From positions 22,633,503-22,697,502 of the forward strand of contig JASEVX010000011.1 of the NCBI GenBank assembly GCA_031761405.1: a stretch of DNA of 64,000 nucleotides, read 5' to 3'. Positions 6,334 to 63,430 of the stretch are shown one piece after another. Source of the DNA: Serripes groenlandicus. Taxonomy: Eukaryota; Mollusca; Bivalvia; Cardiida; Cardiidae. Below the pieces are notes generated by a model that was given only the letters and a program-made list of their open reading frames with translations, searched no databases and had not been told where the DNA came from. Position numbers and translations under genes: made by a program. Positions within the stretch are counted from its first letter, which is position 1. The number at the start of each line of letters is the position of its first letter.

Positions 6334-6340
6334 CCTTAAC

Positions 6341-7689: not shown

Positions 7690-8519
<830 letters not shown>

Positions 8520-44700: not shown

Positions 44701-47634
44701 ATGATATTTAGGCTTCGAATATGGTCTGGCTAAAAACTAGGTCACTAGGCCAATAATGAGAACTATTTTGTAAACACTTCTCTCAAATGTTCCTTGCGTG
44801 ACTCTTTACTAAGAGTGTTAATATTAAGTTGATTCTTTAGATACTATAGATAATAAATAGCTTTGCTACAGGTACTATTTTACCCTTTCTACACTACAGA
44901 CACATGTTGTCTAATCTTCAGCAGATGGATGGTATGAGAAATTTTGACAGTTTTCTCAATGTTTTATTCACTTTTAGTTTCATCAATACAGATTTACTAG
45001 TATCTTTAGTTAAACATTTTCAAATCATCTGCTGTAGAGTTTATCCATGTGATAAATTACCTATCACAAATGTGTTTGTTTATCTAACTGTATCTACTGT
45101 CTACAGTTCAAGAGTTTAATTATAGATATCTGGAAATAAGGTTAACCCTGTCTTAAATAAATGTTTGAACTGTATGCATTTCTGCTTTTTTGTTTACATT
45201 GTTTTAAATTATGTGACTTGTGTTGTAACTTTCCAAAAAATGGAACAGTTAACCATCTTTTTTTCCCTCATACAATGGGTACCGTCCCACAGCACTTTCA
45301 GTGCTTTGATTAACTTAAGCATGTTGAAACTTTAGTAGAATGTTTGTCTTAATGATATGTAGGCCAAGTTCGAATATGGGTCAAAAACTTAAAAATGCTT
45401 CAGTAGCTTCAAATTTTGTCAGGATGTTTATCTTAATGATAGCCATGCCAAGTTTGAATATTGGGTCATATTGGGTTAATGTCAAAGCTGGACATAACAG
45501 GATTAAAGCAAGACCTAATCAGGGTCTATATCGCTTTTATCTTTTCCCTGATTATGACCAGTTTTTGACAATATGGAAGAAAAGAGAGGAAGCTTTGCAG
45601 GGGGAAAAAGCAATTTCTCATGTTCGCAAATTGTTAACTTTAATTCAGTAGTAACAGGTGTTACAGCTTTTCCACGTTAATTGTCAAAGGAGACAGATCA
45701 TAAATATTTCTGTTTATCAATGTTGCTCAGTCAGTAAAGATGAGGGCTGTCAATCCAGGGGTAGTTGGTTTGAACATTGCCTCGGCAATTCATTCTTTCC
45801 AATGACATTGTGTTATTCATCAGACTTTAAAAATGGTTACAGGTAGCAATGGCTTTCCCTCCTTATCCCTCATAGTTAGTATGACGACTAACTTGCTTGT
45901 GTCATGATACAGACGACTTAGAAATATTGGAAAATTTCTATTAATGAAGATATAATTACTGAAAAAAAATAAAAATATTGTTGCAGAAGGATAAATAACT
46001 AATCATGAGCAATTTGCGCTTTTGCTACAATGTTTTCAAAAGTCGTCATTTGAAGGGGCTTCAGAAAACATGTGCATATCGGAAAAGATAAAAAAAAACA
46101 TGAAGATGAATGCTTTCCATTTCTATTTAAGATTATGTTTCTTTGCGGAATGAGAAAAGCGGATCATGGTTCATCCAGGCAGTGGTTTATGTGTTTCGAA
46201 AATTTGCTCATGAGAAACATTTACTGGAACTTCTAACCCTGGTATGTATTAATCATTTGCATTGACTTTGAACATGTTCCTAACAATGTGAGCCTCAATG
46301 TAACATATCTTGTTAATCTTTCATTTTTATTTTCCTTACCGTATATGAACCTAGATGTTTTCAAACTTGGCTGCTGCAGATTTATTGTATGTGGGTAAGG
46401 CTTCATCTTATCTTACTTCTTGTTAACAACTATTCAAAAGTAAATTATCTGTAAATACGGAAAAAAGGAAATACCAATGCCTTCATAAGGAGGAGTCAAC
46501 TGGTCTTTCACATATTCACATTTTCTTTCTTATAACTCGACCAATCCCTTTATTGTGGTACTCAAAAGAATCGTATAATAAAGTCTTTATTGATCAAGTA
46601 AGGCTTAAAACCCTTGTCAACTGATACATATTAAGAGCATTCCCTATATTCAATTAGTATACTTTTAGTTATACGGGTAAACAAATAGACGGCGTAACCG
46701 CAATCGGAATATCTCGGTGATGAATATAGATGACGGAATTACCCGAGTAGTTGCGATTGGGCGTAGCCGGCGATTTATTTTCCCGTCCATAGGAAATGTG
46801 TATTAACTTTTTGCTATATCATGTATCCAAAATTGTGTCCAGAGAGGATTTGTTGTTGCAGTCACGATATTCCTACGTATAAAGAAATGAAAACACGTAA
46901 TCTGATATGAAATAATTTGCGTGTAATTACACTCGTTGTATTTTTAAAATGAGTTCAAATAAAAACTAATAAGGTTTACTGACTGACTAACCAGGTTGGA
47001 AAAAAAATCTATAATAGCGACGTCATTGTATTATCGTTACGCAACATGTGAATAAAACGACAGAACGGATAGGTATGTATTATTGACTCGTCACAAATGT
47101 AATTCCGAAAATTGTAGAATTATTTCATTGGAAGTACTTTACGAAGGGCAAGTCGATTATTTGTTGTACCTGTCATCATTATTTCATGGATTTAAAACCT
47201 TGGCCATATTGAATATATGCTTAACCAGATGATGATTTTTTAATGTTTTTGTTCAGGTCGGTAGGACTTGTAAATATAGCTTATAATCAAAGCACTGATA
47301 GTGCTGCAATCAAGGGCCTATCTGCAGATCATAGAGAACGATTTACGGATCACAAAAGGTAATAAATGTTTACCCGAAATAGGTAGCACCTATGCTCATA
47401 TTAGTAGTTTTTTAAAAGTGTTATGCTGCATAATTAATCTTCCAGGAAGAAGACATTGAGATTGATTTAAAAGAAATATTTATGTCTTTGTAGGTCAACA
47501 GACTGGTGGCTAAGGGAAGAGCACCACTAGAGAAAAGTGTTTACGTTGACGAGGAGGAATTAATGCAGACGGCCAATCATTTTTCGTGTCTTGAAAAACT
47601 GTTATTTTTCTTTCCCGGAGTACTTGAGGAGTGA
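20975..47634 (+). CDS. CARD-containing initiator-type caspase (8 coding exons, ~403 aa)
   Basis: Cysteine protease of the apoptosis/inflammation pathway, acting in the cytosol after CARD-driven oligomerisation. Coding exons: 20991-21125, 26709-26889, 27739-27833, 28948-29115, 31139-31358, 31986-32147, 46132-46241, 47494-47634. Phases are 0,1,0,0,1,1,0. CARD occupies residues ~1-90 (starting MDHFQKQILKTIK). p20 carries the RCGTEKDEDAL substrate-Arg block, the catalytic His in ICSHG (~221) and Cys in QACQG (~264). A linker with several Asp follows. p10 carries YVSLRN and GSWFIQ and ends in LLFFFPGVLEE. The ending resembles caspase-2 type proteins (…YLFPG…), and overall length fits caspase-2/9. 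YVSLRN has Leu where many caspases have Trp in the S2 pocket. The gene looks intact. An upstream non-coding exon must exist, because exon 1 starts at an acceptor. Exact orthology (2-like or 9-like) is not settled. Confidence 0.9.
21126..22011. repeat. Intron 1: dispersed mollusc repeat
   Basis: From about 21340 it carries the 'agctcccctgagcacaaagt' / 'gtgctcaagatgagctattg' repeat, then degenerate copies of 'gaaactttgtcagaatgttt' and 'gatatctaggcc'. Related pieces recur at 24500-25700, 25960-26610, 31560-31860, 32250-32430, 42230-42840, 43800-44110, 44340-44790 and 45300-45470. No gene. Confidence 0.7.
22018..24493. mobile_element. 2.5-kb fold-back transposon with long inverted arms and 6-bp target duplication
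   Basis: Direct TTCAGC at 22012-22017 and 24494-24499 brackets the element. It starts TATGGTGGCATAATTCTGCC and ends in the near-exact complement; each tip is itself a hairpin (TGGTGGCA...TGCCACCA). Left and right arms match in inverted orientation for at least 250 bp, including the landmark 'agtatatgttactgcccact' (22157) and its complement near 24335. Inside the arms are arrays of ~50-bp units rich in the palindrome AACTAGTT with 'ttatcacgatacttatct'. The middle is a ~0.95 kb block of different sequence (22920-23890). No transposase frame. It lies in caspase intron 1, inside a dispersed repeat. Confidence 0.85.
22920..23890. other. Unique block inside the fold-back element
   Basis: The AACTAGTT array stops and resumes around it. 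It contains a (TA)n/(TG)n microsatellite (23620-23820) and ends 'ggaggaaataaagaatatct', then an atct-type tail, which looks like a retroelement 3' end. Frames rich in Tyr/Ile/Val/Cys come from the microsatellite. Probably a secondary insertion; source unknown. Confidence 0.45.
24500..26609. repeat. Intron 1: dispersed repeats
   Basis: Degenerate copies of the 'gaaactttgtcagaatg' / 'gatatctaggcc' and 'gctcacctgaacac...gtgctca' repeats, including the 'ccatggcaacc' and 'ggctatagtgaaaac' modules. A left MITE end lies at about 25815-25940. Short frames are not genes. Confidence 0.6.
26610..26686. mobile_element. TTAA MITE, right half, abutting exon 2
   Basis: It reads gtctgctgcagaggcg...tatgtgggaaagggttaa, the right arm of the family whose full copies are at 44121 and 63431. 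It ends 22 bases before exon 2. The left-arm-like sequence 'gcagcagagacttttgaaaa' / 'cattgtggcaaaatgacgaa' sits at 26934-26970, just past the exon 2 donor. Confidence 0.7.
26709..26889 (+). CDS. Caspase exon 2 (CARD helices 4-6)
   Basis: Acceptor cttttaaag|gcg, donor gata|gtaagt, phase 0 in and 1 out. It encodes AMEKDDEKTRHLLDIIPETG and onwards through LMETGNSVAASNLQ, the classical second half of a CARD. The acceptor lacks a long pyrimidine tract, the nearby upstream sequence being the end of a MITE. Confidence 0.88.
27150..27348. mobile_element. TTAA MITE copy in intron 2
   Basis: Left arm 'aaatctgcagcagacgactt', centre 'gaaaacattgtggcaaatga', and right arm ending tatgtgggaaagggttaa. The left terminus is eroded. 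Confidence 0.7.
27438..27655 (-). mobile_element. tRNA-derived SINE, minus strand
   Basis: The reverse complement shows a B-box-like ggttgtgagtttgaatcc, then 'aaaagcagccagttgctttg' and a tail 'gactgccttgatatgattga', the same modules in the same order as the SINE at 43295. Old and diverged; the A box is poor. Confidence 0.7.
27739..27833 (+). CDS. Caspase exon 3 (pro-domain to p20 linker)
   Basis: Acceptor acatttcag|aa, donor ggt|gtaagt, phase 1 in and 0 out. It encodes WPSEQAMKEYIFVRPCDVNS and a short basic tail. The donor at 27834 is fixed by phase: using gtgtaag at 27832 would break the frame of exon 4. Confidence 0.75.
27834..28947. other. Intron 3
   Basis: AT-rich, with T-homopolymers near 28207 and 28492 and a gtagtgtca/tgacactac hairpin near 28623-28655. 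No gene. The strong inverted repeat near its 3' end is listed separately. Confidence 0.6.
28799..28918. repeat. Strong intronic inverted repeat next to exon 4
   Basis: Arms 28799-28828 and 28890-28918 (gtgtttatttattatcactt and its complement) match over about 28 bp with one extra base, with a 61-base loop. It ends 29 bases before exon 4. It could be a degenerate MITE. Confidence 0.85.
28948..29115 (+). CDS. Caspase exon 4 (start of p20)
   Basis: Acceptor acattctag|gtt, donor aag|gtaact, 56 codons, phase 0/0. It contains YSMNNKSRGRCIVISNKTF and RCGTEKDEDALYRLFTQLQF, the first p20 strand and the Arg-bearing P1 pocket segment. Confidence 0.92.
29442..29483. repeat. Twin palindromic motif in intron 4
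   Basis: Two copies of agtattcgaatattcgatc 25 bp apart, each centred on cgaatattcg. Confidence 0.7.
29600..29828 (+). mobile_element. tRNA-derived SINE with 14-bp target duplication
   Basis: TTAATTTGTTCATC flanks it at 29586-29599 and 29829-29842. A box gtggtcgagtggttagcg, B box gggttagatcccc, body 'ctagcctagtactggtttgt', tail (attc)n. Same family as the copy at 50177. Confidence 0.9.
29843..31138. other. Rest of intron 4
   Basis: AT-rich with no recognised gene or repeat. The 97-codon minus-strand frame at 30428-30721 has no domain or splice support. Confidence 0.55.
31139..31358 (+). CDS. Caspase exon 5 (catalytic p20 core)
   Basis: Acceptor tcttttag|gaa, donor ggag|gtttgt, phase 0 in and 1 out. 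It encodes EMLNILKDEAK, CFVCVICSHG (catalytic His) and KLFFIQACQG (catalytic Cys). Both catalytic residues are intact. Confidence 0.95.
31359..31985. other. Intron 5
   Basis: Contains dispersed-repeat modules (31560-31860: 'cattgattggttttgaaaca' type) and MITE pieces (31870-31930). No gene. Confidence 0.55.
31986..32147 (+). CDS. Caspase exon 6 (p20/p10 linker and start of p10)
   Basis: Acceptor tttttttcag|gt, donor ccag|gtatgt, phase 1/1. It encodes TIDYGVDQFKQMQL, an Asp/Thr/Lys-rich linker (…KTDAKMFEPTND…) with plausible self-cleavage Asp, then KIDMLIAKSAHP, the first p10 strand. Translation joins smoothly to DYVSLRN in exon 7. Confidence 0.92.
32164..32245. mobile_element. TTAA MITE core hairpin just after exon 6
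   Basis: acaaaaggagaaattgct and agcaatttcttcttttgcca pair around a 7-base loop. This is the central hairpin of the MITE family, 16 bases past the exon 6 donor. The outer arms are missing. Confidence 0.65.
32439..32521. repeat. MULE left terminal inverted repeat
   Basis: Matches the complement of 39343-39423 over about 75 of 83 positions, including a second unit gcataggcggaca. It ends at the point where the CR1 element is inserted. Confidence 0.85.
32785..33527 (+). CDS. CR1 SGNH-hydrolase (esterase)-like ORF, one frameshift
   Basis: About 247 codons. ATG at 32785 (MSVSKLTKEIGKLIVEEG) opens a frame that stops at 33015. The conserved reading moves by one frame at about 32968 and continues GFRRQFLTNIRLATNPLVLI, WFGTCEL (the block normally G-x-N-D) and LDGIHPGTHLSKLWLHNI (the catalytic D-x-x-H block) to TAG at 33525. 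Esterase domains are established in ORF1 of CR1-like elements, where they are usually fused to the PHD part; here the unit is a separate upstream ORF. Whether the off-consensus blocks allow catalysis is unclear. Confidence 0.6.
33521..34068 (+). repeat. Five spaced GGGAAnCCC hairpin motifs between CR1 ORFs
   Basis: aataGGGAAACCCttttcta at 33523, aataGGGAAACCCtgttcta at 33643, aataGGGAAGCCatgt at 33785, acaGGGAAGCCCTGT at 33899 and aataGGGAATCCCTGT at 34050, spaced 115-150 bp. Each can form a small hairpin. The first overlaps the esterase-like stop codon and the last ends 26 bases before the next ATG. The sequence between motifs is not repeated. Confidence 0.8.
34093..35226 (+). CDS. CR1 ORF1: PHD-type zinc finger, coiled coil, nucleic-acid-binding domain
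   Basis: From ATG 34093, residues ~24-82 form a C-x2-C ... C-x2-C ... YC-x2-C ... WTC-x2-C PHD-like finger (CPKCENTITDK, ACSVCELNYC, FKWTCNGC). A coiled coil follows (~85-165), then an RRM-like segment (ALNVIVFNL, VCFRIGKPGEGKLRPLKV) and LTPRQRE. TAA at 34888 stops the frame after 265 residues, but coding-like sequence goes on in the same frame to TAG at 35224, so the TAA is probably a recent nonsense mutation in an ancestral 377-codon ORF. It is in the same frame as ORF2, 54 bases away. Expected role: RNP protein that binds the element's RNA. Confidence 0.75.
35281..38178 (+). CDS. CR1 ORF2: apurinic-like endonuclease and reverse transcriptase (965 aa)
   Basis: Intact frame. The N-terminal EEP endonuclease (~1-230) has YTNADCLLNKMSEL, DIIAITET, HVGDYNFKEINW and GNSDHEV. 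The RT follows with KSPGYDSMHPKVIKE, YRPISLTSIIGKIME, HGFRSGRSCQTQL, DVIYLDFQKAFDTVPHKRL, GIPQGSVLGPILFTIYINDL, catalytic LFADDTKIY and DLGVIVDNKLKF. The C-terminal region (LEYGSSVW, NVQRRATKLI) is typical of CR1/Jockey-group elements. The protein nicks target DNA and copies element RNA by target-primed reverse transcription. The stop codon lies inside the aaggtaaac tail, leaving almost no 3' UTR. All key residues are present, so this copy could supply activity. Confidence 0.92.
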   Translation: MYTNADCLLNKMSELKSLIKDKQYDIIAITETFPKQKHNVNYDSVEWCIQGYNIFYCPDKGLTERGCLIYVKNNLKAFQLNNVENKLIETVIIGIECANKKHILFSCTYRSPSSSDKSVLKEIENIMILNNSNNINFDIKIHVGDYNFKEINWETETTSMGPENISTLFLEIVRDSFQHQLIKQPTRYRGDNTPSILDLIFTNEPGIIGEISHNAPLGNSDHEVLEFEILKIDNEKVYNDVKLSYWKGDYKEINRELSNVNWNRVSTHEDVNEIWSSFADQLSNITRKHIPVCNSAPRKFDTPWMDTQTLQAVKRKRTMWKKFKYSQYPEAKIKYDIAKNEANYKIRNAKRCYEKSIAMKMKTDSKIFWKFVQSKTKTKEKIQSIIDKEGNIHTDNREKAELLNTFFESVFTKENNEIPAFADRTAYRLDTVKFTESRTLINLSKLKESKSPGYDSMHPKVIKETAPQIKTPLTNLFNQSMKVSIVPTEWKRANIMPIHKTGPKNLVSNYRPISLTSIIGKIMEVDIRDAIMKHMESNNLFTNHQHGFRSGRSCQTQLLEVIEDWTFNLDRKNQMDVIYLDFQKAFDTVPHKRLLQKLKGYGICGNLHKWIENFLSGREQRVVLNNSHSMWTPVISGIPQGSVLGPILFTIYINDLPDVVTNIAKLFADDTKIYSVVNNTKDKENLQKDLNELSKWSNTWLLKFNNNKCKHLHLGQDTNYTYHMSGNIISTTTEEKDLGVIVDNKLKFSQHISSKVKKANQILGIIRRSFSHLDKDMLLVLYKSLVRPHLEYGSSVWSVINKKEDLLLENVQRRATKLIPSLKHKEYQQRLKELGLPTLQYRRLRADMVETYKILNNIDKVNIHKLFHFHQTNTRGHNQKLFKCHCRLNIRKYFFSQRIIVPWNNLPDSVVNAKNVNNFKNLLNKCWNDPVFKFVPYYGGPEAAQQNKIQNGPERRKPNTVSTTR
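38190..38619. other. MULE interior, left of transposase
   Basis: Begins with a third subterminal motif (gcggacattctccccttc at 38193). The rest is AT-rich. A TTAA-MITE-like piece (gaaaacactgcgggaaaagg) occurs near 38477. A possible acceptor (ctctccaag) precedes the transposase ORF. Confidence 0.5.
38620..38985 (+). CDS. MULE transposase, C-terminal fragment (121 aa)
   Basis: The frame contains FKPETWNVHLATLTGQARTN, NVCEGWNNGFSRLVGHKNPS and LWTVLKCLEKD. 'RTNN-x-EGW-(H/N)-x-x-F-x-x-x-(V)GH' is the conserved C-terminal signature of metazoan MULE transposases. The DDE catalytic core and any zinc finger are absent, so the protein cannot transpose on its own. An AATAAA signal lies at about 39091. 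A spliced upstream exon at 38605 cannot be excluded. Confidence 0.75.
   Translation: MKFRRTQPLFKPETWNVHLATLTGQARTNNVCEGWNNGFSRLVGHKNPSLWTVLKCLEKDATMVEADILRHQMGQTFTQRCKRSLVKHQETLHTLCSRYLEKQKSLSEFLNTIGSNIRLSK
39243..39423. repeat. MULE right end: five subterminal repeats and terminal inverted repeat
   Basis: gaaggggagaatgtccgc recurs at about 39265, 39288, 39320 (variant), 39353 and 39385. The last two form the inverted repeat with 32439-32521. Confidence 0.85.
39424..39665 (+). other. Unassigned ORF-like stretch
   Basis: The frame MDCTPKGTVYSQVHFEKSYN... (39456-39662, 69 codons) has balanced composition and looks more coding-like than its surroundings. I recognise no domain and see no certain splice sites. 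It begins right after the MULE target duplication. It may be part of an unknown repeat. Confidence 0.25.
39666..39965. other. Intron 6 spacer
   Basis: AT-rich; nothing recognised. Confidence 0.5.
39966..40185. repeat. Five perfect 44-bp tandem copies
   Basis: The unit starts gtagtattaacaataatgcc, at 39966, 40010, 40054, 40098 and 40142. No difference between copies. Confidence 0.95.
40186..41406. other. Intron 6 spacer
   Basis: No gene. A 36-bp direct duplication (ttaggagacaaaagtggtta) lies at about 40717-40790. Confidence 0.55.
41407..41561 (+). other. Candidate extra caspase p10-like exon
   Basis: The acceptor tttcgtttcag|at gives phase 1, so exon 6 can splice to it and produce DHGNVDGLYYAQYATLLVKK. 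A donor gtcagt at 41475 would leave phase 0, the same in/out phases as exon 7. The GLYYAQ block lines up loosely with GSWFIQ of exon 7. Without that donor, the frame reaches a stop at 41559. Similarity is weak and the donor poor; it could equally be a chance ORF or a piece of something else. Confidence 0.25.
41562..42092. other. Intron 6 spacer with 28-bp triplet repeat
   Basis: Three copies of 'ttgttaaatgacccaagatg' plus 'taaaagat' at about 41959-42040. The rest is unassigned. Confidence 0.6.
42093..42222. mobile_element. TTAA MITE, right half
   Basis: Core hairpin (acaaaaggagaaattgctcg / gagcaatttcttcctc) and right arm 'gtctgctgcagaggcgtcag' ending gagggaaagggt. Confidence 0.7.
42230..42840. 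repeat. Dispersed mollusc repeat
   Basis: Modules 'ccatggcaaccaaa', 'ggggcggggctattttgcct' and 'tatatggctatagtgaaaac', in two local copies. Non-coding. Confidence 0.6.
43295..43561 (+). mobile_element. tRNA-derived SINE, near full length
   Basis: A box tagctcagtcagtagag, B box ggttgtgagttcgaacacc, body with 'aaaagcagccagttgcttgg' and tail 'tgatatgactgaaagattga', ending in aatcaatcaaa. The tRNA-like head is not a functional tRNA: there is no acceptor stem pairing. It is the source-type sequence of the 44-bp minisatellite at 1-386. Confidence 0.85.
43800..44110. repeat. Dispersed repeat copies
   Basis: Several degenerate copies of 'gttgaaactttctcagaata' / 'tgatatctagcctaagttcg'. These uninterrupted copies act as empty-site references for the MULE insertion. 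Confidence 0.6.
44121..44354. mobile_element. TTAA MITE, complete copy (~230 bp)
   Basis: It starts TTAACCCTTTCCCTCATA and ends gagggaaagggCTAA. Inner arms carry 'gcctctgcagcagatggc' and 'gtcgtctgctgcagaa'. The centre is a hairpin (gaagaaattgct...agcaatttctcc). TTAA flanks with CCC termini suggest piggyBac-like mobilisation. The family has a dozen or more full or partial copies in the window. Confidence 0.8.
44355..45470. repeat. Intron 6: dispersed repeat copies
   Basis: More degenerate 'gaaactttgtcagaatg' / 'gatatttaggcc' copies, with an unassigned AT-rich stretch at 44800-45290. Confidence 0.5.
45474..45651 (+). other. Unassigned ORF-like stretch
   Basis: The frame reads NVKAGHNRIKARPNQGLYRF, then FPDYDQFLTIWKKREEALQ, to a stop at 45649. 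It is more coding-like than its surroundings and breaks a dispersed repeat. No family recognised. It could be a retrocopy scrap or a piece of an unknown transposon. Confidence 0.25.
45722..45860 (+). mobile_element. tRNA-derived SINE, head fragment
   Basis: Diverged A box (tgctcagtcagtaaag), then 'gagggctgtcaatccagggg' and a damaged B box. Same family as 43295. Confidence 0.6.
46132..46241 (+). CDS. Caspase exon 7 (p10 core)
   Basis: Acceptor ttctatttaag|at, donor ctg|gtatgt, phase 1 in and 0 out. It encodes DYVSLRNEKSGSWFIQAVVY and onwards to LLELLTL. Arg of SLRN is the P1-binding residue; the usual Trp before it is Leu. It lies 14 kb from exon 6, across the MULE/CR1 nest. A partial TTAA MITE (45990-46095) is just upstream. 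Confidence 0.93.
47494..47634 (+). CDS. Caspase exon 8a (C-terminal exon)
   Basis: Acceptor gtctttgtag|gtc, 46 codons plus TGA, phase 0. VNRLVAKGRAPLEKSVYVDE, then LMQTANHFSCLEKLLFFFPG and VLEE. VNR-x-VA and the FFPG end are typical for p10. The middle part corresponds to loop L4, which shapes the S4 pocket in caspases. Confidence 0.92.
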   Translation, partial: VNRLVAKGRAPLEKSVYVDEEELMQTANHFSCLEKLLFFFPGVLEE

Positions 47635-48049
47635 CATCACATGAACATGTATATGTCTAACAGCGATATATAAAGACTATTAATTGTTAAATACTAAATT
47701 AATCAACTGTTCATGTAAATTTCTTTCTTTCATTTATCTTATCATCTAGACTTGAATGTTTATCTTGTCTGTTTTTCGGAGAAAAAGGTCGGGCTATTGT
47801 GATACATTTGGCGTCGTCACAACACATAAACCGTAACTTAAAAAATGTTCAACATTTTCAGATGAAACTAGGGACACATGTGGGAAGAGTATGCATGTCT
47901 ATACCAAGTCACGTAATTCTGGCATTAATAATTATCCAGTAATGCCCTTTTTTGACTTGGAAAAAAGCTGGCGAGCGTTGGTGTACGCTCCATGCAACTC
48001 TTGGTTTTGTTTGTATGATGATTAACGCCACTTCCAACAATGTTCAATT
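47635..48049. other. 3' flank of exon 8a
   Basis: Likely 3' UTR at first. No AATAAA is close by. A short frame after an ag (atgaaactagggacacatgt) is conserved in copy B but has no recognised domain. Confidence 0.4.
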
Positions 48050-48246
48050 ATATCTTGGCTTTGGCTGGGTAAGATCCAGACACCAACGAGTCAGTCATTA
48101 TGCTTACCCCTACAATCCGGAGCGCCTTGGAGGGAAATATTTACAACCGTTTTTAAAGTCTTTGGTATGACCCGACCGGAGATCAAACTCTCGACCTTCC
48201 TCACATGAGGCAGACACTCTACCACTACACCACCTAGGTGGTTTAG
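48050..48246 (-). mobile_element. tRNA-derived SINE, minus strand (copy in A)
   Basis: The complement reads ggtggtgtagtggtagagtg (A box), gagagtttgatctccggtc (B box) and 'ggtcataccaaagacttta'. It is present at the orthologous site in copy B (55451-55655), so it predates the duplication. Confidence 0.8.
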
Positions 48247-48479
48247 GGCTCATTCATATAACTTGATGCCAGTGTAGTAAACAAGTTTTAAAAGCATTAT
48301 GAGAAAAGATAAAATTGTTCATAATGATAACTCCTCTTTTTCTCACAGTGCATTCAACTCGTTGGCAAAAATATACATGACATATTTCAGATATCATGCT
48401 TTTTACATGACTCTGAAAATATAATGGGAAAATCTCTTAAAATGAAAAGATAAGTATTGAAAAGAGTTGGAAATATTGT

Positions 48480-48660
48480 GGTCGAAAGAGAAATGTATCC
48501 TTCTGCCACAATATGTTCAATGGTTGTCTGCTGCAGATGCTTTAAACGTCTCTTAAACGGTTAGCCCTTTCCCACATACAAACACTTTTGAAAACATTGT
48601 GGCAAAAAGAGAAGTTGCCCTAAATGATTATTGTTCTTTCGTTTATAGTTTCCATATGTA
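48480..48660. mobile_element. TTAA MITE pieces
   Basis: Right arm 'gttgtctgctgcagatgc' followed by a left terminus 'agccctttcccacatacaaa', i.e. parts of two adjacent copies. Duplicated in copy B at about 55880-56060. Confidence 0.6.
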
Positions 48661-48829
48661 TTACTTGATGTTTTCCGAGTTGTCTTTTGTATGTGTAAAA
48701 GGCATAAGATACATAAGTAAACCTTCCATTGTAAACTTAAACATTGTAATAATAGATTTATATACCAATATTTGATAGTAATTAAATTCAGTAAAACAAT
48801 TTCACATAGCTACTGGACTGAAAAAAGTG

Positions 48830-48945
48830 AATTATTATATACCATGGAATAATGTCTATGTATTTGTTAATAAAATCTATGATAATAGACATAAGCAATT
48901 TAAGTATAAATTGCTTCATAGAATTTTTCTAAGTACTGATTTAAA
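48830..48945 (+). pseudogene. LINE ORF2 C-terminal scrap (copy in A)
   Basis: YIPWNNVYVFVNKIYDNRHK, then QFKYKLLHRIFLS, resembles the conserved C-terminal W-x-x-x-Y ... K-x-(F)-Q/K-Y-K-(L)-L-x-R-I region of many LINE ORF2 proteins. The same scrap is at 56235-56350 in copy B. Confidence 0.5.
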
Positions 48946-49649
48946 ATTTAGTTTGCAAGATCGACCAACGTCAACCCAAGAACTCGGTCTAACGATGATT
49001 TCAAAGTACAGGGTCAATAACCGATATTATTGCATACTTTCATTTTGTCCCGTTCACTTTGCACTATTGAAAGTAGTCATGATTTTTCGGTCATGACCGG
49101 TGTCAAGGTGTGATCATGACCGTAGATAAGGACGTGCAAAAATTCGCATAATTAACATGCTTGGGGCTACTTCTTTATGTAAACAAACATAGCTGACCTA
49201 AATATCATTATTATACCTCAAGTGACTTTGTAATGTTAAATTATCATATTCTCATCCTTGGCTATTTATTACTGTCTCATGCCAACAGTACGTTTTTGAC
49301 CTGTTAACAGTAAAGTATTATATGGCACGCGCGTCATTCACGTAAAACAATAACGTCACTTTCCAAACGGCATTTGCAACAAAATGACTTCTAACGTTAA
49401 CAAACAGTTTGTTTCGATTTCGGAAGCAAGTTTATCAACTCTAGATAAAAAATAAAAACCAAAGAGTTTACAACATGAAAGTATGAAATAATCGTTGGAC
49501 CGCGTTCTTTGGCGAACGTAGCCTCGCAAGCTCAGCAATGTCAACCCAAGAACTCATTCTTACGATGATTTCACAGGTACAGGGTTAACATCTATAACAA
49601 AAGAAGTATACGCTTCACCCAAAAGAAAAGTACATAATTTGCTTTGCAG

Positions 49650-49925
49650 ATGACTTATCTAACTTTTCCCACATACAACAAAACTGCAGCAGATGACTTA
49701 TCTAACTTTTCCCACATACAACAAAACTGCAACAGATGACTTATCTAACTTTTCCCAAATACAACAAAACTGCAACAGATGACTTATCTAACTTTTCCCA
49801 TATACATTGTACAACAAAACTGCAACAGATGACTTATCTAACTTTTCCCACATACAACAATACTGCAACAGATGACTTATCTAACTTTTCCCACATACAA
49901 CAAAACTGCAGCAGATGACTTTGAA
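49650..49925. repeat. 43-bp minisatellite made from a MITE end
   Basis: Six copies of 'cagatgacttatctaactttt' trimmed as cagatgacttatctaacttt + tcccacatacaacaaaactg. The unit is the TTAA MITE left terminus (cttttcccacatacaacaaa + actgcagcagatgactt). The array leads straight into the rest of a MITE copy (to about 50035). Absent from copy B. Confidence 0.85.
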
Positions 49926-50176
49926 ATATATCAAAACTAGGATGGAATGTATAAATATTGAAGAATTACATCCTTTTGTCTCAATGTTTTCAAAAGTTGT
50001 CTGCCTCAGATGTGTCAAAATGCCTCTTTATTTATTATGCTCTCAAAAATTATATGATCATTTTTATAACCCAATGTTAATATGCAACCTGATTTTCTAG
50101 ATTTATATTGAACAGGAAATAGGTTCTTATTCTTACCTACAACTTATATAATAGCGCAATGCTTCATTCTTTGAGG

Positions 50177-50392
50177 TGGACTCCGCCGTGGTCGAGTGGT
50201 TAGCGTTAGAGAATTGAAATCGGGCATCCCGGGTTCGATCCCCAGTTCAACACGAGAATCATGGTAGAGTGCCCTTGGGACATTTTCTAGCCTAGTACTG
50301 GTTTATTTACCCAGGGATCATGAATAAGTGAAATGTTGCCATGATATAACTGAAATAATGTTGAAAGCGGCATAAAACCCAAATTAAACAAA
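50177..50392 (+). mobile_element. tRNA-derived SINE with 12-bp target duplication
   Basis: Direct CATTCTTTGAGG at 50165-50176 and 50393-50404. A box gtggtcgagtggttagcg, B box gggttcgatcccc, 'ctagcctagtactggtttat', tail 'gatataactgaaataatgtt' + gaaagcggcataaaaccc. Present only in copy A. Confidence 0.92.
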
Positions 50393-50549
50393 CATTCTTT
50401 GAGGCTTAACCCTTTCCCACATACAACAAATCTGCAGCTGACAACTAGGAAAATATCTAGCCAAAGTTATGAATAATATCTCTGATCTAAAACTTACTTA
50501 TTGGATAGGGTTGAACGAATTGTGGCAAATGGAGAGGCATCTATAAGCA

Positions 50550-51672
50550 TCTTGTACTCTGATTGAACTTGCTGGTTTTCTATTTGTTCCCTCTTAAGAA
50601 GACTACAACCATTTCCCATATGTAATAAATCTTCAGCAGACGAAATATGGAAAATCTCTTGAAATGAAAGTATAATTATTGAATAGAAATGAAAATACTG
50701 TTGAAAAGGTTGTGTAAAAATTGTATTTGTTTTATTATCATTTATTATACTCTGGTTGAACTTGCTGGTTTGCTTTTTGTTGCCTCTTCGGAAGGCTTAA
50801 ACCATTTCGCACATGCCAACAAACTTGCAGCAGACGACATATAGAAAATCTCACTTAAATGAAAGTATAATTATTGAATAGAAATGAAAATATTGTTGAA
50901 AAAGTTGTGTAAAAATTATATTTGTTTTATTATCATTTATTATACTCTGATTGAACTTGTTGTTTTTTATTTGTTCCCTCTTCAGAAGGTTTCAACCATT
51001 TCGCACATGCATCAAACTTGCAGCAGACAAAATATAGAAAATCTCTCTTTAATGAAAGTATAATTATTGAATAGAAATGAAAACATTGTTGAAAAAGTTG
51101 TGTAAAATTTATATTTATTTTATTATCATTTATTATACTCTGATTGAACTTGCTGTTTTTTATTTGTTCCATCTTCAGAAGGCTTCAACCATTTCGCACA
51201 TGCAACAAAGTTGCAGCAGACAAAATATAGAAAATCTCTCTTTAATGAAAGTATAATTATTGAATAGAAATGAAAATACTGTTGAAAAAGTTGTGTAAAA
51301 TTATATTTGTTTTATTATCATTTATTATACTCTGATTGAACTTGCTGGTTTTCTATTTGTTCCCTCTTCAGAAGGCTTCAACCATTTCGCACATGCAACA
51401 AACTTTCAGCAGACAAAATATAGAAAATCTCTCTTAAATGAAAGTATAATTATTGAATAGAAATGAAAATATTGTTGAAAATGTTGTGTAAAAAATTTTT
51501 TTGTTTTATTATCATTTATTATACTCTGATTGAACTTGCTGGTTATCTATTTGTTCCCTCTTCTTCAGAAGGCTTCAACCATTTCTCACATGCAACAAAC
51601 TTGCAGCAGACAAAATATAGAAAATATCACTTAAATGAAAGTATAATTATTGAATAGAAATGAAAATATTGC
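50550..51672. repeat. 194-bp satellite, array 1 (~6 copies)
   Basis: The monomer has 'tattatactctgattgaact', 'cttcagaaggcttcaaccat', 'ttcgcacatgcaacaaactt', 'gcagcagac' and 'aaagtataattattgaatag'. Same monomer as 57130-63236. Confidence 0.93.
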
Positions 51673-52323
51673 CTTGCATGACTGGATTATGGCCCTTGAA
51701 ATTGTCAAAATTGCTATAATACAGCTAGTGAACACAATAGAGCCTCCATTTACTCTCTGATCTCTACCAAACTTAGATAGTAGTTAAATATGGATGAGAG
51801 CTTGGTTCCGTTTGAAAACCAGCCAGATGTGCCCTTGCATGACTGGATTATGGCCCTTGAAATTGTCAAATCTGCTATAATTGAACTTGTGAACACAATA
51901 GAGGCTCCATTTACTAACTAATCTTCACCAAACTCAGATAGTAGGTAAATATGGATGATAGCTCGGTTCCTTTCTAAAACCAGCCAGATGTGCACTTGCA
52001 TGACTGGATTATGGCCCTTGAAATTGTCAAAATTGCTATAATACAGCTTGTGAACACAACAGAGCCTCGATTTACTTTCCGATCTTCACCAAACTTAGAT
52101 AGTAGTTAAATATTAATGAGAGCTTGGTTCCTTTCGCAAACCAGCCAGATCCGCTAATGCAAGACTGGATTATGGCCCTTGAAATTATCAAAATTGCTAT
52201 AATACAGCTTTTGAACACAAAGAGCCTCCATTTACTATCCGATCTGCACCATACATACATGCTCTGTAGTGAAAATGACCAGAGAACCATACCAGTAGAG
52301 CATAGGCCTTCATGGGCCTCTTG
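51673..52323. repeat. ~159-bp tandem repeat, four copies
   Basis: The unit contains 'cttgcatgactggattatgg', 'cccttgaaattgtcaaaatt' and 'gatagtagttaaatatggat', starting near 51674, 51833, 51996 and 52153. It ends in a 'catgggcctcttgttatt' tail common in mollusc repeats. It separates duplication copies A and B. Confidence 0.85.
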
Positions 52324-53492
52324 TTATTTTCCTTACCGTATATGAACCTAGACGTTTTCAAACTTGTCTGCTGCAGATTTATTGTATTTGGGTAAGGCTT
52401 CATCTTATCTTACTTCTTGTTATCAACTTTTCAAAAGTAAATTATCTGACGACACGGAAAAAAAGGGAATACCAATGCCTTCATAAGGAGGAGTCAACTG
52501 GTCTTTCACATATTCACAATTTCTTTCTTATAACTCGACCAATCCCTTTATTGTGGTACTCAAAAGAATCGTCTCATAAAGTCTTCAAGGATCAAGTAAG
52601 GCTTAAAACCCTTTTCAACAGATGCATATTAAGAGCATTAACTATATTCAATTAGTATACTTTTAGTTATACGGGTAAACAAATAGACGGCGTAGCCGCA
52701 ATCGGAATATCTCGGTGATAAATATAGATGACGGAATTACCCGAGTAGTTGCGATTGGGCGTAGCCGGCGATTTGTTTCCCGTCCATAGGTAATGTGTAT
52801 TAACTTTACTATATCATGTATCCAAAATTGTGTCCAGAGAGGATTTGTTGTTGCAGTCACGATATTCCTACGTATAAAGGAATGAAAACACGTAATATGA
52901 TATGAAATAATTTGCGTGTAATTACACTCGTTGTCTATTTTTAAAATGAGTTCGAATAAAAACTAAAAGGTTAACTGACTGACTAACCAGGTGGAAAAAA
53001 ATAATCTATAATAGCGACGTCATTGTATTATTGTTACGCAACATGTGAATAAAAAGACAGAACGGATAGGTATGGATATATTGACTCGTCACAAAAGTTC
53101 CGTAAATTGTAGAATTATTTCATTGGAAGTACTTTACGAAGGGCAAGTCGATTATTTGTTGTACCTGTCATCATTAATTCAATGATTTAAAACCTTGGCC
53201 ATATTTTAAAGTTGAATATATGCTTAACCAGATGATGATTTTTAGTGTATTTGTAAAGGACAGTAGACTCGTAAATAGCTTATAATCAAAGCACTGATAG
53301 TGCTGCAAGCAAGGAGCTATCTGCAGATCATAGAGAACGATTTACGGATCACGAAAGGTAATAAATGTTTACCCGAAATAGGTAGCACCTATGCAATTTT
53401 GTATTCATTTTTCAAGAGCTTTATGCTGCAGAGTTAATCTTCAAGGAAGAAGACATTGAGATTGATTTAAAAAAATATTTATGTCTTTGTAG

Positions 53493-53633
53493 GTCACCAG
53501 ACTGGTGGCAAAGGGAAGAGCACGACAACAGGGCAAAGCTGAAGCTGAACAGGAGCATTTAATGCAGACGGCCAATCATATTTCGTGTCTTGAGAAATCG
53601 TTATTTTTCTTTCCCGGAGTATTTGAGGAGTGA
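53493..53633 (+). CDS. Caspase exon 8b (alternative or relic C-terminal exon)
   Basis: Acceptor gtctttgtag|gtc, 46 codons plus TGA, same phase and length as 8a. VTRLVAKGRARQQGKAEAEQ, then EHLMQTANHISCLEKSLFFF and PGVFEE. Codons 11-22 differ almost entirely from 8a while the rest is nearly identical. No exon 7 copy precedes it, so it can only be used by splicing from exon 7 past 8a. The frame has no lesion. It could be a real alternative terminal exon or an undecayed duplicate. Confidence 0.7.
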   Translation, partial: VTRLVAKGRARQQGKAEAEQEHLMQTANHISCLEKSLFFFPGVFEE

Positions 53634-54042
53634 CATCACATGAACATGTATGTGTCTAACAGCGATATATAAAGACTATTAATTGTTAAATACTAAATTA
53701 ATCAACGGTTCATGTAAATTTCTTTCTTTCATTTATCTTATCATCTAGACTTGAATGTTTATCTTGTCTGTTTTTCAGAGAAAAAAGTCGGGCTATTGTG
53801 ATACAGCGTCGTCACAACACATAAACCGTAACTTAAAAAATGTTCAACATTTTCAGATGAAACTAGGGACACATGTGGGAAGAGTATGCATGTCTATACC
53901 AAGTCACGTAATTCTGGCATTAATAATTATCCAGTAATGCCCCTTTTTGACCTGGAAAAAAGCTGGCGAGCGTTGGTGTACGCTCCGTGCCACTCTTGGT
54001 TTTGTTTGTATGATGATTAACGCCACTTCTAACAATGTTCAA

Positions 54043-55450
54043 CAAGCAAATTCATGAAATTTCTATCCCCCGCTTGGAGGAAATATTGTAGGAAAAAAGT
54101 GCGGAAAACCCGAACGGACGGACGGAGGGAGGGACGGACGGAGGGAGGAACGGACATGACCATACCATAATAAAACGGTTGTATAAAAAAAGGTTCACAT
54201 TTGTGGCAGTTATTGCACGGAAACGGCAAGAAACGACATTTTTTGTTAAATAAGGGGCCATAACTCCACCAAATAAAGTCTGCCGAAAGTGACGATCGAA
54301 GTTGGCCTAGCCCTTAAGGCATTTAACCTTGTTACCAAGTTTGAAAAAAAAAGGTTCACATCTGTGGCAGTTATTGCACGGAAACATTAAGAAACGACAT
54401 ATTTTGTTAAATAAGGGGCCATAACTCCACCAAATAAAGTCTGCCGAAAGTGACGATCGAAGTTGGCCTAGCCCTTAAGGCATTTAACCTTGTTACCAAG
54501 TTTGAAAAAAAAAGGTTCACATCTGTGGCAGTTATTGCACGGAAACAGCAAGAAACGACATATTTTGTTAAATAAGGGGCCATAACTCCACCAAATAAAG
54601 TCTGCCGAAAGTGACGATCGAACTTGGCCTAGCCCTTAAGGCATTTAACGTTGTTACCAAGTTTGAAAAAAAAAGGTTCACATTTGTGGCAGTTATTGCA
54701 CGGAAACAGCAAGAAACGACATTTTTTGTTAAATAAGGGGCCATAACTCCACCGAAAGTGATATTCGAACTTGGCCTAGCCCTTAAGGCATTTAACGTTG
54801 TTACCAAGTTTGAAAAAAAAAGGTTCACATTTGTGGCAGTTATTGCACGGAAACAGCAAGAAACGACATTTTTTGTTAAATAAGGGGCCATAACTCCACC
54901 AAATAAAGTCCGCCGAAAGTGACGATCGAACTTGGCCTAGCCCTTAAGGCATTTAACGTTGTTACCAAGTTTGAAAAAAAAAAGGTTCACATTTGTGGCA
55001 GTTATTGCACGGAAACGGCAAGAAACAACATATTTTGTTAAATAAGGGGCCATAACTCCACCAAATAAAGTCCGCCGAAAGTGATATTCGAACTTGGCCT
55101 AGCCCTTAAGGCAGTTAACGTTGTTACCAAGTTTGAAAAAAAAAGGTTCACATTTGTGGCAGTTATTGCACGGAAACGGCAAGAAACAACATATTTTGTT
55201 AAATAAGGGGCCATAACTCCACCAAATAAAGTCCGCCGAAAGTGATATTCGAACTTGGCCTAGCCGTTAAGGCATTTAACCTTGTTACCAAGTTTGAAAA
55301 GAAACGGTTCACATTTGCGGCAGTTATTGCACGGAAACGAAGTGTGACGGACGGACAGACGGACAGACGGACAGACGGACAGACAGACGGACGGACGGAC
55401 AAACCGAAATTAATAACCCCCCTTTTTTTCTTCGAAAAAGCGGGGGATAA
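54043..55450. mobile_element. Insertion with ATCCCCCGCTT ends carrying a 161-bp array
   Basis: Copy A (47.99-48.06 kb) gives the empty site. Near-terminal inverted repeats: ATCCCCCGCTT at 54065-54075 and AAGCGGGGGAT at 55438-55448. The ends are lined by ggacggacgg(ag) simple repeats. Inside are eight ~161-bp units (one 143-bp) with 'aaggttcacatttgtggcag', 'aaataaggggccataactcc' and 'cttggcctagcccttaaggc'. Non-coding: frames on either strand repeat with the unit. It inserted after the segmental duplication, or was lost from A. Confidence 0.75.
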
Positions 55451-55655
55451 TTATATCTTGGCTTTGGCTGGGTAAGATCCAGACACCACTGAGTCACTCA
55501 TTATGCTTACCCCTACAATCCGGATCGCCTTGGAGGGAAATATTTACAACCGTTTTTAAAGTCTTTGATATGACCCGACCGGAGATCAAACTCTCGACCT
55601 TCCTCACATGAAGCAGACACTCTACCACTACACCACCTAGGTGGTTTAGGGCTCA
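55451..55655 (-). mobile_element. tRNA-derived SINE, minus strand (copy in B)
   Basis: Orthologous to 48050-48246, with the insertion 54043-55450 abutting its end. Confidence 0.78.
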
Positions 55656-56234
55656 TGCATATAGCTTGATTTCAGTGTAGTAAACAAGTTTTAAAAGCAT
55701 TATGAGAAAAGATAAAATTGTTCATAATGAGAACTCCTCTTTTTCTCACAGTGTTTTCAACTCGTTGGCAAAAATATACATGACATATTTCAGATATCAT
55801 GCTTTTTACATGACTCTGAAAATATAATGGGAAATTATCTTTAAATGAAAAGATAAGTATTGAAAAGAGTTGGAAATATTGTGGTCGAAAGAGAAATGTA
55901 TCCTTCTGCCACAATATGTTCAATGGTTGTCTGCTGCAGATGCTTCAAACGTCTCTTAAACGGTTAGCCCTTTCCCACATACAAACACTTTTGAAGACAT
56001 TGTGGCAAAAAGAGAATTTGCCCTAAATGATTATTGTTCTTTCGTTTATAGTTTCCATATGTATTACTTGATGTTTTCCGAGTTGTCTTCTGTATGTGTA
56101 AAAGGCATAAGATACATAAGTAAACCTTCCATTGTAAACTTAAACATTGTAATAATAGATTTATATACCAATATTTGATAGTAATTAAATTCAGTAAAAC
56201 AATTTTACATAGCTACTGGACTGAAAAAAGTGAA

Positions 56235-56350
56235 TTATTATATACCATGGAATAATGTCTATGTATTTGTTAATAAAATCTATGATAATAGACATAAGCA
56301 ATTTAAGTATAAATTGCTTCATAGAATTTTTATAAGTACTGATTTAAAAT
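56235..56350 (+). pseudogene. LINE ORF2 C-terminal scrap (copy in B)
   Basis: Duplicate of 48830-48945, with ISTDLK in place of LSTDLK. Confidence 0.45.
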
Positions 56351-57129
56351 TTAGTTTGCAAGATCGACAACGTCAACCCAAGAACTCGGTCTAACGATGA
56401 TTTCACAGTACAGGTCAATAACCGATATTATTGCATACTTTCATTTTGTCCCGTTCACTTTGCACTATTGAAAGTAGTCATGATTTTTCGGTCATGACCG
56501 GTGTCAAGGTGTGATCATGACCGTAGATAAGGACGTGCAAAAATTCGCATAATTAACATGCTTGGGGCTACTTCTTTATGTAAACAAACATAGCTGACCT
56601 AAATATCATTATTATACCTCAAGTGACTTTGTAATGTTAAATTATCATATTCTCATCCTTGGCTATTTATTACTGTCTCATGCCAACAGTACGTTTTTAA
56701 CCTGTTAACAGTAAAGTATTATATGGCACGCGCGTCATTCACGTAAAACAATAACGTCACTTTCCAAACGGCATTTGCAACAAAATGACTTCTAACGTTA
56801 ACAAACAGTTTGTTTCGATTTCGGAAGCAGATTTATCTAGATAAAAAATAAAAACCAAAGAGTTTACAACATGAAAGTATGAAATAATCGTTGGACCGTG
56901 TTCTTTGGCGAACGTAGCCCCGCAAGCTCAGCAATGTCAACCCAATAACTCAACTCAGTATTACGATGATTTCACAGGTACAGGGTTAACACCTATAATA
57001 AAAGAAGTACACGCTTCTGCAGCTGACAACTAGGAAAATATCTAGCCAAAGTTATGAATAATATCTCTGATCTAAAACTTACTTATAGGATAGGGTTGAA
57101 CAAATTGTGGCAAATGGAGAGGCATCTAT

Positions 57130-60100
57130 AAGCATCTTGTACTCTGATTGAACTTGCTGGTTTTCTATTTGTTCCCTCTTAAGAAGACTACAACCATTTC
57201 CCAGCAGACGAAATATGAAAAATCTCTTGAAATGAAAGTATTATTATTGAATAGAAATGAAAATACTGTTGAAAAGGTTGTGTAAAAATTATATTTGTTT
57301 TATTATCATTTATTATACTCTGATTGAACTTGCTGGTTTGCTTTTTGTTCCCTCTTCAGAAGGCTTCAACCATTTCGCACATGCAACAAACTTGCAGCAG
57401 ACGACATATATAAAATCTCACTTAAATGAAAGTATAAGTATTGAATAGGAATCAAAATATTGTTGAAAAAATTGTGTAAAAATTATATTTGTTTTATTAT
57501 CATTTATTATACTCTGATTGAACTTGCTGGTTTGCTTTTTGTTCCCTCTTCAGAAGGCTTCAACCATTTCGCACATGCAACAAACTTGCAGCAGACGAAA
57601 TATAGAAAATCTCTCTAAAATGAAAGTATAATTATTGAATAGAAATGAAAACATTGTGGAAAAAATTGTGGAAAAATTATATTTGTTTTATTATCATTTA
57701 TTATACTCTGATTGAACTTGCTGTTTTCTATTTGTTCCCTCTTCAGAAGGCTTCAACCATTTCGCACATGCAACAAACTTGCAGAATATGGAATATAGAA
57801 AATCTCTCTTTAATGAAAGTATATTTATTGAATAGAAATGCAAATACTGTTGAAAAAGTTGTGTAAAATTATATTTGTTTTTATTATCATTTATTATACT
57901 CTGATTGAACTTGCTGGTTTTCTATTTGTTCCCTTTTCAGAAGGCTTCAACCATTTCGCACATGCAACAAACTTGCAGCAGACGAAATATAGAAAATCTC
58001 TCTTAAATGAAAGTATAATTATTGAATAGAAATGAAAATATTGTTGAAAAAGTTGTGTAAAAATTATATTTGTTTATTATCATTTATTAGACTCTGATTG
58101 AACTTGCTGGTTTTCTATTTGTTCCTTCTTCAGGAGGCTTCAACCATTTCGCACATGCAACAAACTTGCAGCAGACGAAATATAGAACATCTCTCTAAAA
58201 TGAAAGTATAATTATTGAAAAGAATGAAATCATTGTTGAAAAAGTTGTGTAAAAATTATATTTATTTTATTATCATTTATTATACTCTGATTGAACTTGC
58301 TGTTTTTCTATATGTTCCCTTTTCCGAAGGCTTCAACCATTTCGCACATGCAACAAACTTGCAGCAGACGAAATATAGAAAATCTCTTTTAAATGAAAGT
58401 ATAATTATTGAATAGAAATGCAAATACTGTTGAAAAAGTTGTGTAAACTTATATTTGTTTTATTATCATTTATTATACTCTGATTGAACTTGCTGGTTTT
58501 CTATTTCTTCCCTTTTCCGAAGGCTTCAACCATTTCGCACATACAACAAACTTGCAGCAGACAAAATATAGAAAATCTCTCTTAAATGAAAGTATAATTA
58601 TTGAATAGAAATGAAAATATTGTTGAAAAAGTTGTGTAAAAATTATTTTTGTTTTATTATCATTTATTATACTCTGATTGAACTTGCTAGTTTTTTATTT
58701 GTTCCCTCTTCAGAAGGCTTCAACCATTTCGCACAAGCAACACACTTGCAGCAGAAGAAATATAGAAAAATCTCACTTAAATGAAAGTATAATTATTGAA
58801 TAGAAATGAAAATGTTGTTGAAAAAGTTGAGTAAAAATTATGTTCGTTTTATTATCATTTATTATACTCTGATTGAACTTGCTGGTTTTCTATATGTTCC
58901 CTTTTCCGAAGGCTTCAACCATTTCGCACATGCAACACACTTGCAGCAGAAGAAATATAGAAAATCTAACTTAAATGAAAGTATAATTATTGAATAGAAA
59001 TGATAATGTTGTTGAAAAAGTTGAATAAAAATTATGTTCGTTTTATTATCATTTATTATAATCTGATTGAACTTGCTGGTTTTCTATTTGTTCCTTCTTC
59101 AGAAGGCTTCAACCATTTCGCACCTGCAACAAACTTGCAGCAGACGACATATAGAAAATCTTACTTAAATGAAAGTATAATTATTGAATAGAAATGAAAA
59201 TATTGTTGAAAAAGTTGTGTAAAAATTATATTTGTTTATTATCATTTATTAGACTCTGATTGAACTTGCTGGTTTTCTATTTGTTCCTTCTTCAGGAGGC
59301 TTCAACCATTTCGCACATGCAACAAACTTGCAGCAGACGAAATATAGAACATCTCTCTAAAATGAAAGTATAATTATTGAAAAGAATGAAATCATTGTTG
59401 AAAAAGTTGTGTAAAAATTATATTTATTTTATTATCATTTATTATACTCTGATTGAACTTGCTGTTTTTCTATATGTTCCCTTTTCCGAAGGCTTCAACC
59501 ATTTCGCACATGCAACAAACTTGCAGCAGACGAAATATAGAAAATCTCTTTTAAATGAAAGTATAATTATTTGAATAGAAATGCAAATACTGTTGAAAAA
59601 GTTGTGTAAACTTATATTTGTTTTATTATCATTTATTATACTCTGATTGAACTTGCTGGTTTTCTATTTCTTCCCTTTTCCGAAGGCTTCAACCATTTCG
59701 CACATACAACAAACTTGCAGCAGACAAAATATAGAAAATCTCTCTTAAATGAAAGTATAATTATTGAATAGAAATGAAAATATTGTTGAAAAAGTTGTGT
59801 AAAAATTATTTTTGTTTTATTATCATTTATTATACTCTGATTGAACTTGCTAGTTTTTTATTTGTTCCCTCTTCAGAAGGCTTCAACCATTTCGCACAAG
59901 CAACACACTTGCAGCAGAAGAAATATAGAAAAATCTCACTTAAATGAAAGTATAATTATTGAATAGAAATGAAAATGTTGTTGAAAAAGTTGAGTAAAAA
60001 TTATGTTCGTTTTATTATCATTTATTATACTCTGATTGAACTTGCTGGTTTTCTATATGTTCCCTTTTCCGAAGGCTTCAACCATTTCGCACATGCAACA

Positions 60101-63100: not shown

Positions 63101-63236
63101 TATATTTGTTTTATTATCATTTATTATACTCTGATTGAACTTGCTGTTTTTTTTATTTGTTACCTCTTCAGAAGACTTCAACCATTTCCCACATGTTACA
63201 AATCTGCAGCAGACGAAATATAGAAAATCTCTTTAA
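57130..63236. repeat. 194-bp satellite, array 2 (~31 copies)
   Basis: Head-to-tail monomers of 193-195 bp. A six-monomer block of about 1162 bp is repeated back-to-back almost without change (about 58030-59191 and 59192-60354), a higher-order unit. One half of the monomer is the TTAA MITE left arm; the rest (attatatttgttttattatc, ctgattgaacttgctggttt) is other sequence. Each monomer holds an open frame of ~63 codons on the + strand, which repeats only because the DNA does. Confidence 0.95.
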
Positions 63237-63239
63237 ATG

Positions 63240-63417
63240 TTTCATCATCCTAGTGCACCAAGTATTCCTATGGTTTACACAAACAAAAAGTATAGACTAT
63301 AATGAACAAGACATTGAGGACGAATTCCACTTGAATCTACTGATCAGTGCTTGTTTTCTGAGCTGTGTTATACTTTGTATATATACGTTTATCATGTTGG
63401 TTGTCAGATTCCCATAA
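63240..63417 (+). other. Candidate single-TM coding stretch
   Basis: The frame reads TQTKSIDYNEQDIEDEFHLN, then a hydrophobic segment LLISACFLSCVILCIYTFIM, to a stop at 63415. A possible acceptor (catcatcctag) ends at 63253. The satellite stops just before it. It could be an exon of a neighbouring gene or chance; no family recognised. Confidence 0.2.
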
Positions 63418-63430
63418 ATTGACCTTGCCT

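Follow-up and report, generated by a model that had tools for sequence, protein, structure and literature searches.

A 64,000-nucleotide stretch of the genome of the bivalve Serripes groenlandicus, hereafter the window (contig C113, positions 22633503-22697502), carries a gene for a CARD caspase whose last exon is present twice in tandem. The two copies, exons 8a and 8b, differ above all in the segment that homology assigns to loop L4. On the evidence set out below, we consider it just probable that they are tandem last exons under diversifying selection that are used as alternative last exons.

Differences between exons 8a and 8b are concentrated in codons 11-22

Both exons comprise 141 bases in phase 0, end with the stop codon TGA and are preceded by the same ten intron bases (gtctttgtag). 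Direct comparison reproduced these features as well as the difference counts given in the initial annotation. That is, 23/141 bases differ, and 16 of these differences fall into codons 11-22, where 11 of the 12 codons are touched and each touched residue is changed, while the other 105 bases of the exon contribute seven. The density of differences in this segment exceeds that in the rest of the exon (Fisher p = 1.2e-6) and that in the noncoding remainder of the duplicated block (Fisher p = 9e-12). When the block was permuted 20,000 times, the highest count seen in any window of 36 columns was 13, short of the 16 observed; the L4 segment is the densest window of the block. Misalignment was considered as a cause: a gapped alignment exists, yet its edit distance is also 16.

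The claim that exon 7 had remained single was confirmed by a tblastn search with the full protein on positions 47001-64000, which returned 8a, 8b and one match at chance level (expectation value, E, 7.7). One exon 7 in the window would serve both last exons; its donor fits either of them in phase and either ends the frame. Likewise, there is one exon 5 near the pair, the nearest other exon-5 matches lying ~180 kb and more upstream. An AATAAA motif is first seen at +1235 after 8a and at +536 after 8b, judged by motif match alone.

The gene encodes a CARD caspase

The spliced open frame comprises 403 amino acids with 8a and with 8b alike. Its assignment as a CARD caspase is borne out by Pfam, since both domains exceed their cut-offs: Peptidase_C14 (PF00656) scores 184.8 bits with 8a and 184.9 bits with 8b (cut-off 21.4), and the N-terminal CARD (PF00619) 47.3 bits (cut-off 23.9). 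In caspases, the catalytic His resides in the motif SHG and the catalytic Cys in QACxG; exon 5 encodes CSHG and QACQG, matching these motifs. A protein search with the full-length caspase yielded 2163 candidates, 525 of them at E <= 0.001, and the best 120 of the 525 supplied the sequences for alignments A1 (23 of the 120) and A2 (46 of the 120). The best full-length matches are CARD caspases, the first ten being 35-41% identical and the named ones coming from bivalves.

Codons 11-22 are assigned to loop L4 by homology

In the A1 profile, the residues that follow VNRLVAKG, up to the next strand, align with those that separate VNDRVAR from KQIPC in caspase-7; this profile alignment took in caspase-7 and CED-3. 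An AlphaFold model of the relative P0005 (predicted local distance difference test score, pLDDT, 88.7; predicted template modelling score, pTM, 0.72) shows a helix at residues 386-399, a loop and a strand at 417-420, with a mean pLDDT of 68 over residues 401-410. Codons 11-22 align to P0005 residues 403-411 with three residues inserted. When the model was compared with the PDB, the best matches were caspases, and all among the 50 matches listed are caspase entries. By the profile alignment to solved caspases and the model of this relative, codons 11-22 are placed in L4, as initially proposed. Among the 14 closest sequences, 9 of the 12 L4 columns reach an entropy of 2.1-3.1 bits, values that are the highest of the exon or close to it; the remaining three are mostly gaps, and one C-terminal column is equally variable. 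Structural work describes contacts of L3 and L4 to P4 and, in caspase-6, an L4 residue that rotates into S4 (PMC7846959).

A colinear contig carries a single exon 8

Searching the genome of the same species (1.76 Gb, 1739 contigs) with the 8a DNA and with the 8a protein revealed the same six exon-8-like places. Two of these are 8a and 8b, another lies on contig C976, and the others are found on C113 at 22.27, 22.43 and 22.49 Mb. The latter three paralogs (P1-P3) each have an exon 7 and one exon 8 within the 10 kb examined, and their L4 reads PQEGSGEAQ(K/Q)GQ. The gene in the window is one of four related CARD caspase copies near each other on C113. With an exon-5 query, 53 places were found at E <= 0.001, contigs C1185, C1074 and C224 being noted among them; C1185 holds caspase-like frames, most of ~360 amino acids, in rows spaced near 1.77 kb.

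C976, a contig of 198 kb, is colinear with the window from ~8508 on and continues past it to its own end at C113:22740600, colinearity beyond the window having been sampled in two stretches. Near the last exons the two are 98-99% identical, and in other parts 93-98%. The upstream half of C976 gave no match to 7 kb at C113:22620000 and no colinear match to window positions 587-8508. All eight exons are present on C976, where exon 8 occurs once and is of the 8a type (6/141 differences to 8a, 18/141 to 8b); 8b is absent. Judging from this arrangement, C976 is probably the other haplotype, the alternative reading being a recent segmental copy. If it is the other haplotype, 8b is a presence/absence polymorphism.

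The L4 loops changed in both lineages, mostly by replacements

Changes were polarised by parsimony with P1-P3 as outgroup, three exon sites being ambiguous. Within L4, the stem of 8a and C976 accumulated 8.7 replacement and 0.3 silent changes, 8a two, C976 one and 8b five replacements, and the common stem three. Since the split, 16.7 replacement changes in L4 thus compare with 0.3 silent ones, whereas the rest of the exon shows four and three, respectively. Compared by segment, as the initial annotation had suggested, the ratio of replacement to silent changes is higher in L4 than in the rest of the exon (p = 0.017, rounded counts). The 16 L4 changes between 8a and 8b compare with 1.4 expected at 3.9% divergence (p = 3e-12), and the excess holds at 18% divergence (p = 0.001). 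The latter value is near the maximum age of the split, noncoding divergence to the paralogs being 17.7-19.8% in two long segments. Therefore, even an old split masked by gene conversion could not do without an excess rate of change in L4. In sum, L4 changed in both lineages by amino-acid-changing substitutions above the neutral expectation.

The initial annotation had attributed the excess either to diversifying selection or to a small conversion or replacement event. The second possibility, in which one copy acquired its L4 from a different sequence through conversion or template switching, now appears very improbable. It would fit the clustered, multi-base codon changes in the 8a lineage (GGC to AAA, GAA to TAC) and the second cluster of differences in the intron. 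However, a search within 2 kb, nearby or inverted, returned for L4 and for the intron cluster only matches no better than shuffles (whole-window template matches came without a shuffle control), and no donor for L4 was found among the six exon-8-like places, for which the best candidates were scored; none but C976 has an 8a-like loop. Moreover, C976 is a stepwise intermediate, since its codons 18-19 read GCTGAA as in 8b and not GTTGAC as in 8a, and the L4 segments of 8a and 8b still match at 20/36 positions, more than shuffles do (p = 0.0003). P1-P3 were rejected as conversion donors for 8b, as the L4 distance of 8-9/36 (22-25%) is no closer than that of the flanks (18-20%). Likewise, the likeness of the 8a loop to Mercenaria-type loops had suggested it as the ancestral state, which was overturned by P1-P3. 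A donor for L4 may lie outside the assembly. Thus, diversifying selection is the explanation supported and loop replacement is not, because L4 changed in both lineages, no donor was found and the gene as a whole behaves alike.

The whole gene differs more in exons than in flanking introns

The last of these arguments derives from comparison of the window with C976 over 396 aligned codons, which revealed 69.7 replacement and 7.3 silent differences. Proportions of differing sites are 7.4% for replacement and 3.0% for silent sites (p = 0.008). Exons differ at 76/1191 sites (6.4%) as compared to 44/3183 (1.4%) in the adjoining 200-bp flanks (p = 7e-17). Hence, exons differ 4.6 times more than adjoining introns, with nine to ten replacements per silent change. 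Three longer noncoding stretches differ at 51/2828, 58/3869 and 34/2589 sites. Exon 7 is identical in both contigs. These site counts, from one gene in one genome, support diversifying selection on the gene, and this comparison of the two probable haplotypes is stronger evidence for it than the exon pair alone.

As separate observations, the differences in exons 1-6 and 8 amount to 4-14% when the two probable haplotypes are compared, and exons 6 and 2 show length differences of 21 bp and 3 bp, respectively.

Exon 8 was copied within a larger unit

Exon 8 was duplicated as part of a 1.7-kb block together with 1.57 kb of downstream sequence (Table 1). The two copies of the block, A and B, diverge by 5.7%, or 3.9% once three parts are disregarded (L4, the intron cluster and a third patch), and the downstream parts by 2.2%. 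Copy B lacks the stretch corresponding to 49617-50430. Private differences number 82 in B, 14 in A and 14 in C976 for the first block, and 18, 16 and 6, respectively, for the second. By these counts, the exon region of copy B is a lineage older than the two haplotypes, whereas its downstream part is hardly older. The left edge of copy B matches ~16 bp that end a repeat in intron 7 of the paralogs, and A and C976 are devoid of this repeat; the match suggests that the duplication arose by unequal exchange at repeats. The third patch, at 47240-47283, is not significant alone (p = 0.11). In the right part of the intron cluster, copy B looks by eye nearer to the paralogs. A tandem array with a 194-bp unit has 31 copies at 57202-63239, on the copy B side, and 5.8 copies behind 8a.

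Table 1. Positions in the window of the caspase exons, the L4 segments and the parts of the duplicated unit
Feature	Position	Strand	Basis
Exon 1, CARD caspase	20991-21125	+	Splice sites and open frame
Exon 2, CARD caspase	26709-26889	+	Splice sites and open frame
Exon 3, CARD caspase	27739-27833	+	Splice sites and open frame
Exon 4, CARD caspase	28948-29115	+	Splice sites and open frame
Exon 5, CARD caspase	31139-31358	+	Splice sites and open frame
Exon 6, CARD caspase	31986-32147	+	Splice sites and open frame
Exon 7, one copy, phase-0 donor	46132-46241	+	Splice sites and open frame; 0/110 differences to C976
Last exon 8a	47494-47634	+	Sequence comparison with 8b
8a codons 11-22, assigned to loop L4, PLEKSVYVDEEE	47524-47559	+	Homology and model of a relative
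Last exon 8b	53493-53633	+	Sequence comparison with 8a
8b codons 11-22, assigned to loop L4, RQQGKAEAEQEH	53523-53558	+	Homology and model of a relative
Duplicated block, copy A	46324-48047	+	98 substitutions/1708 columns to copy B
Duplicated block, copy B	52321-54042	+	Counterpart of 46324-48047
Downstream part of unit, copy A	48046-49616	+	35 substitutions/1564 columns to copy B
Downstream part of unit, copy B	55449-57017	+	Counterpart of 48046-49616
Stretch absent from copy A and from the same place of C976	54043-55448	+	Sequence comparison
Intronic cluster of A/B differences, 14/55	47392-47446	+	Permutation test

Elsewhere in the gene, intron 6 contains open frames of 269 and 983 amino acids at 34081-38178, the longer one resembling the reverse transcriptase of a long interspersed nuclear element (LINE). 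C976 is devoid of about 32522-38187, which spans these frames, and the LINE-like stretch is therefore probably an insertion polymorphism between the window and C976. A scan for transfer RNAs in the window found none. The only gap in the window is a run of 200 N at 387-586.

Proposed alternative use of exon 8b

In the haplotype of the window, the last exon and its flanks are duplicated in tandem. Frame, acceptor and p10 core are preserved in both copies, and the L4 loops have diverged through replacement changes in both lineages. We propose that the pair works as alternative last exons: the majority of transcripts would have exon 7 joined to 8a, which is 1,252 bp away, and some would skip 8a and join exon 7 to 8b at a distance of 7,251 bp. 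The two caspases thus produced would share the CARD and the catalytic residues but differ in L4, and perhaps in P4 preference. We infer the allelic status of C976, the splicing of 8b and the change of specificity alike. As a further possibility, which we consider unlikely but worth stating, two long-diverged L4 versions of one immune-type caspase may at first have been maintained as alleles by diversifying selection and then have come to lie in tandem, where they would serve as alternative last exons, an arrangement that may still segregate.

Several observations weigh against alternative use of 8b under diversifying selection. Since 8a comes first, 8b may never be reached by splicing. Among the matches listed for the full-length protein search, there was no product with 8a or 8b from the same species, full-length relatives reaching 41% identity at most, and a search with exon 7 joined to 8b gave one candidate and none scored. 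The intron cluster, 47-101 bp before exon 8, is significant by permutation with L4 left out (p = 5e-5), so differences cluster outside coding sequence as well. In the comparison of the window with C976, silent sites also tend to differ more than the flanks (3.0% versus 1.4%, p = 0.09), and part of the exon excess may therefore stem from mutation or from conversion between paralogs. The case for constraint on 8b outside L4 is weak, with two silent changes and three ambiguous exon sites in the exon. Finally, changes of the S4 subsite and the L4 surface alone did not switch the P4 choice of caspase-3, according to the available part of PMC7846959.

The strongest competing explanation is that 8b is an orphan: the last exon of a diverged allele or gene copy would have come to lie downstream of a complete gene through unequal exchange, and the transcripts of this gene would end at 8a. 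The L4 divergence would then have been selected before 8b lost its upstream exons, and 8b would now be silent and bound to decay. This possibility has real weight, although we regard it as rather doubtful: no exons 1-7 accompany 8b, which lies 7.25 kb from exon 7 behind 8a, is absent from C976 and is represented by no product in the protein searches, and both the greater age of the exon region of copy B and the paralog-like repeat end at its left edge would be accounted for. On the other hand, frame, stop and acceptor of 8b are intact, the 46 aligned intron columns right before the exon show no A/B substitution, and parsimony assigns 8b no replacement and two silent changes outside L4, each of these arguments being weak at 5.7% divergence. 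On balance, alternative use of 8b appears somewhat more likely than a silent orphan.

It is improbable that the assembly joined two haplotypes end to end. The single-exon arrangement of C976 and the block divergence of 2-6%, which is on the order of allelic divergence in bivalves, would agree with such an artefact. However, no N gap separates 8a from 8b, and the exon-8 sequences of A, B and C976 all differ from one another (by 6, 18 and 23 bases in pairwise comparison), whereas a single diploid animal lacking a duplication could have no more than two, assuming that the DNA was not pooled.

If 8b is used, one gene would tune protease specificity through the choice of its last exon, while elsewhere caspase specificity in L4 has been compared gene by gene. 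If L4 alleles were captured in tandem, a single chromosome would make two protease specificities and allelic variation would have been turned into splice variation. Even if 8b is silent, the exon excess and the replacement bias point to an arms race with an inhibitor, a substrate or an adaptor at a cell-death protease.

Comparison with known systems

The CARD caspases of other bivalves (Mactra 'Caspase 9', Mercenaria 'caspase-3-like', Mya 'caspase-7-like' and Dreissena 'caspase-2-like') likewise combine CARD and Peptidase_C14, have the C-terminal pattern VN..V...GRT...Q...FFPG in common and are 37-41% identical to the window caspase over the full length, but their own L4 has another sequence and falls short of the window's by 1 to 10 residues. 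Human CASP10 isoforms (Mch4, FLICE2) reportedly have alternative 3' ends that affect the small subunit, which makes them the nearest precedent; their alternative C-termini are not known to stem from a young tandem exon duplication. The parts of PMC2964310, PMC4558505 and PMC11545656 available to us do not settle this precedent. Caspases-3, -6 and -7 have the same fold and L4 position as the window caspase, with L4 lining the S4 subsite, whereas the specificity differences described in the available part of PMC7846959 are between genes or species and not between last exons of one gene. Among the open-licence papers listed, the titles and abstract openings describe no caspase with an exchange of L4 by exons. 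Tandemly duplicated, alternatively used exons are known from Dscam. The caspase pair resembles such exons in that homologous tandem exons of equal phase diverge in a recognition loop, but it differs in that the exons are terminal, reside on one of two probable haplotypes and are only proposed to be used in messenger RNA. Thus, a caspase that is under diversifying selection and has tandem last exons, which may be used alternatively, could represent a new variation on a known theme.

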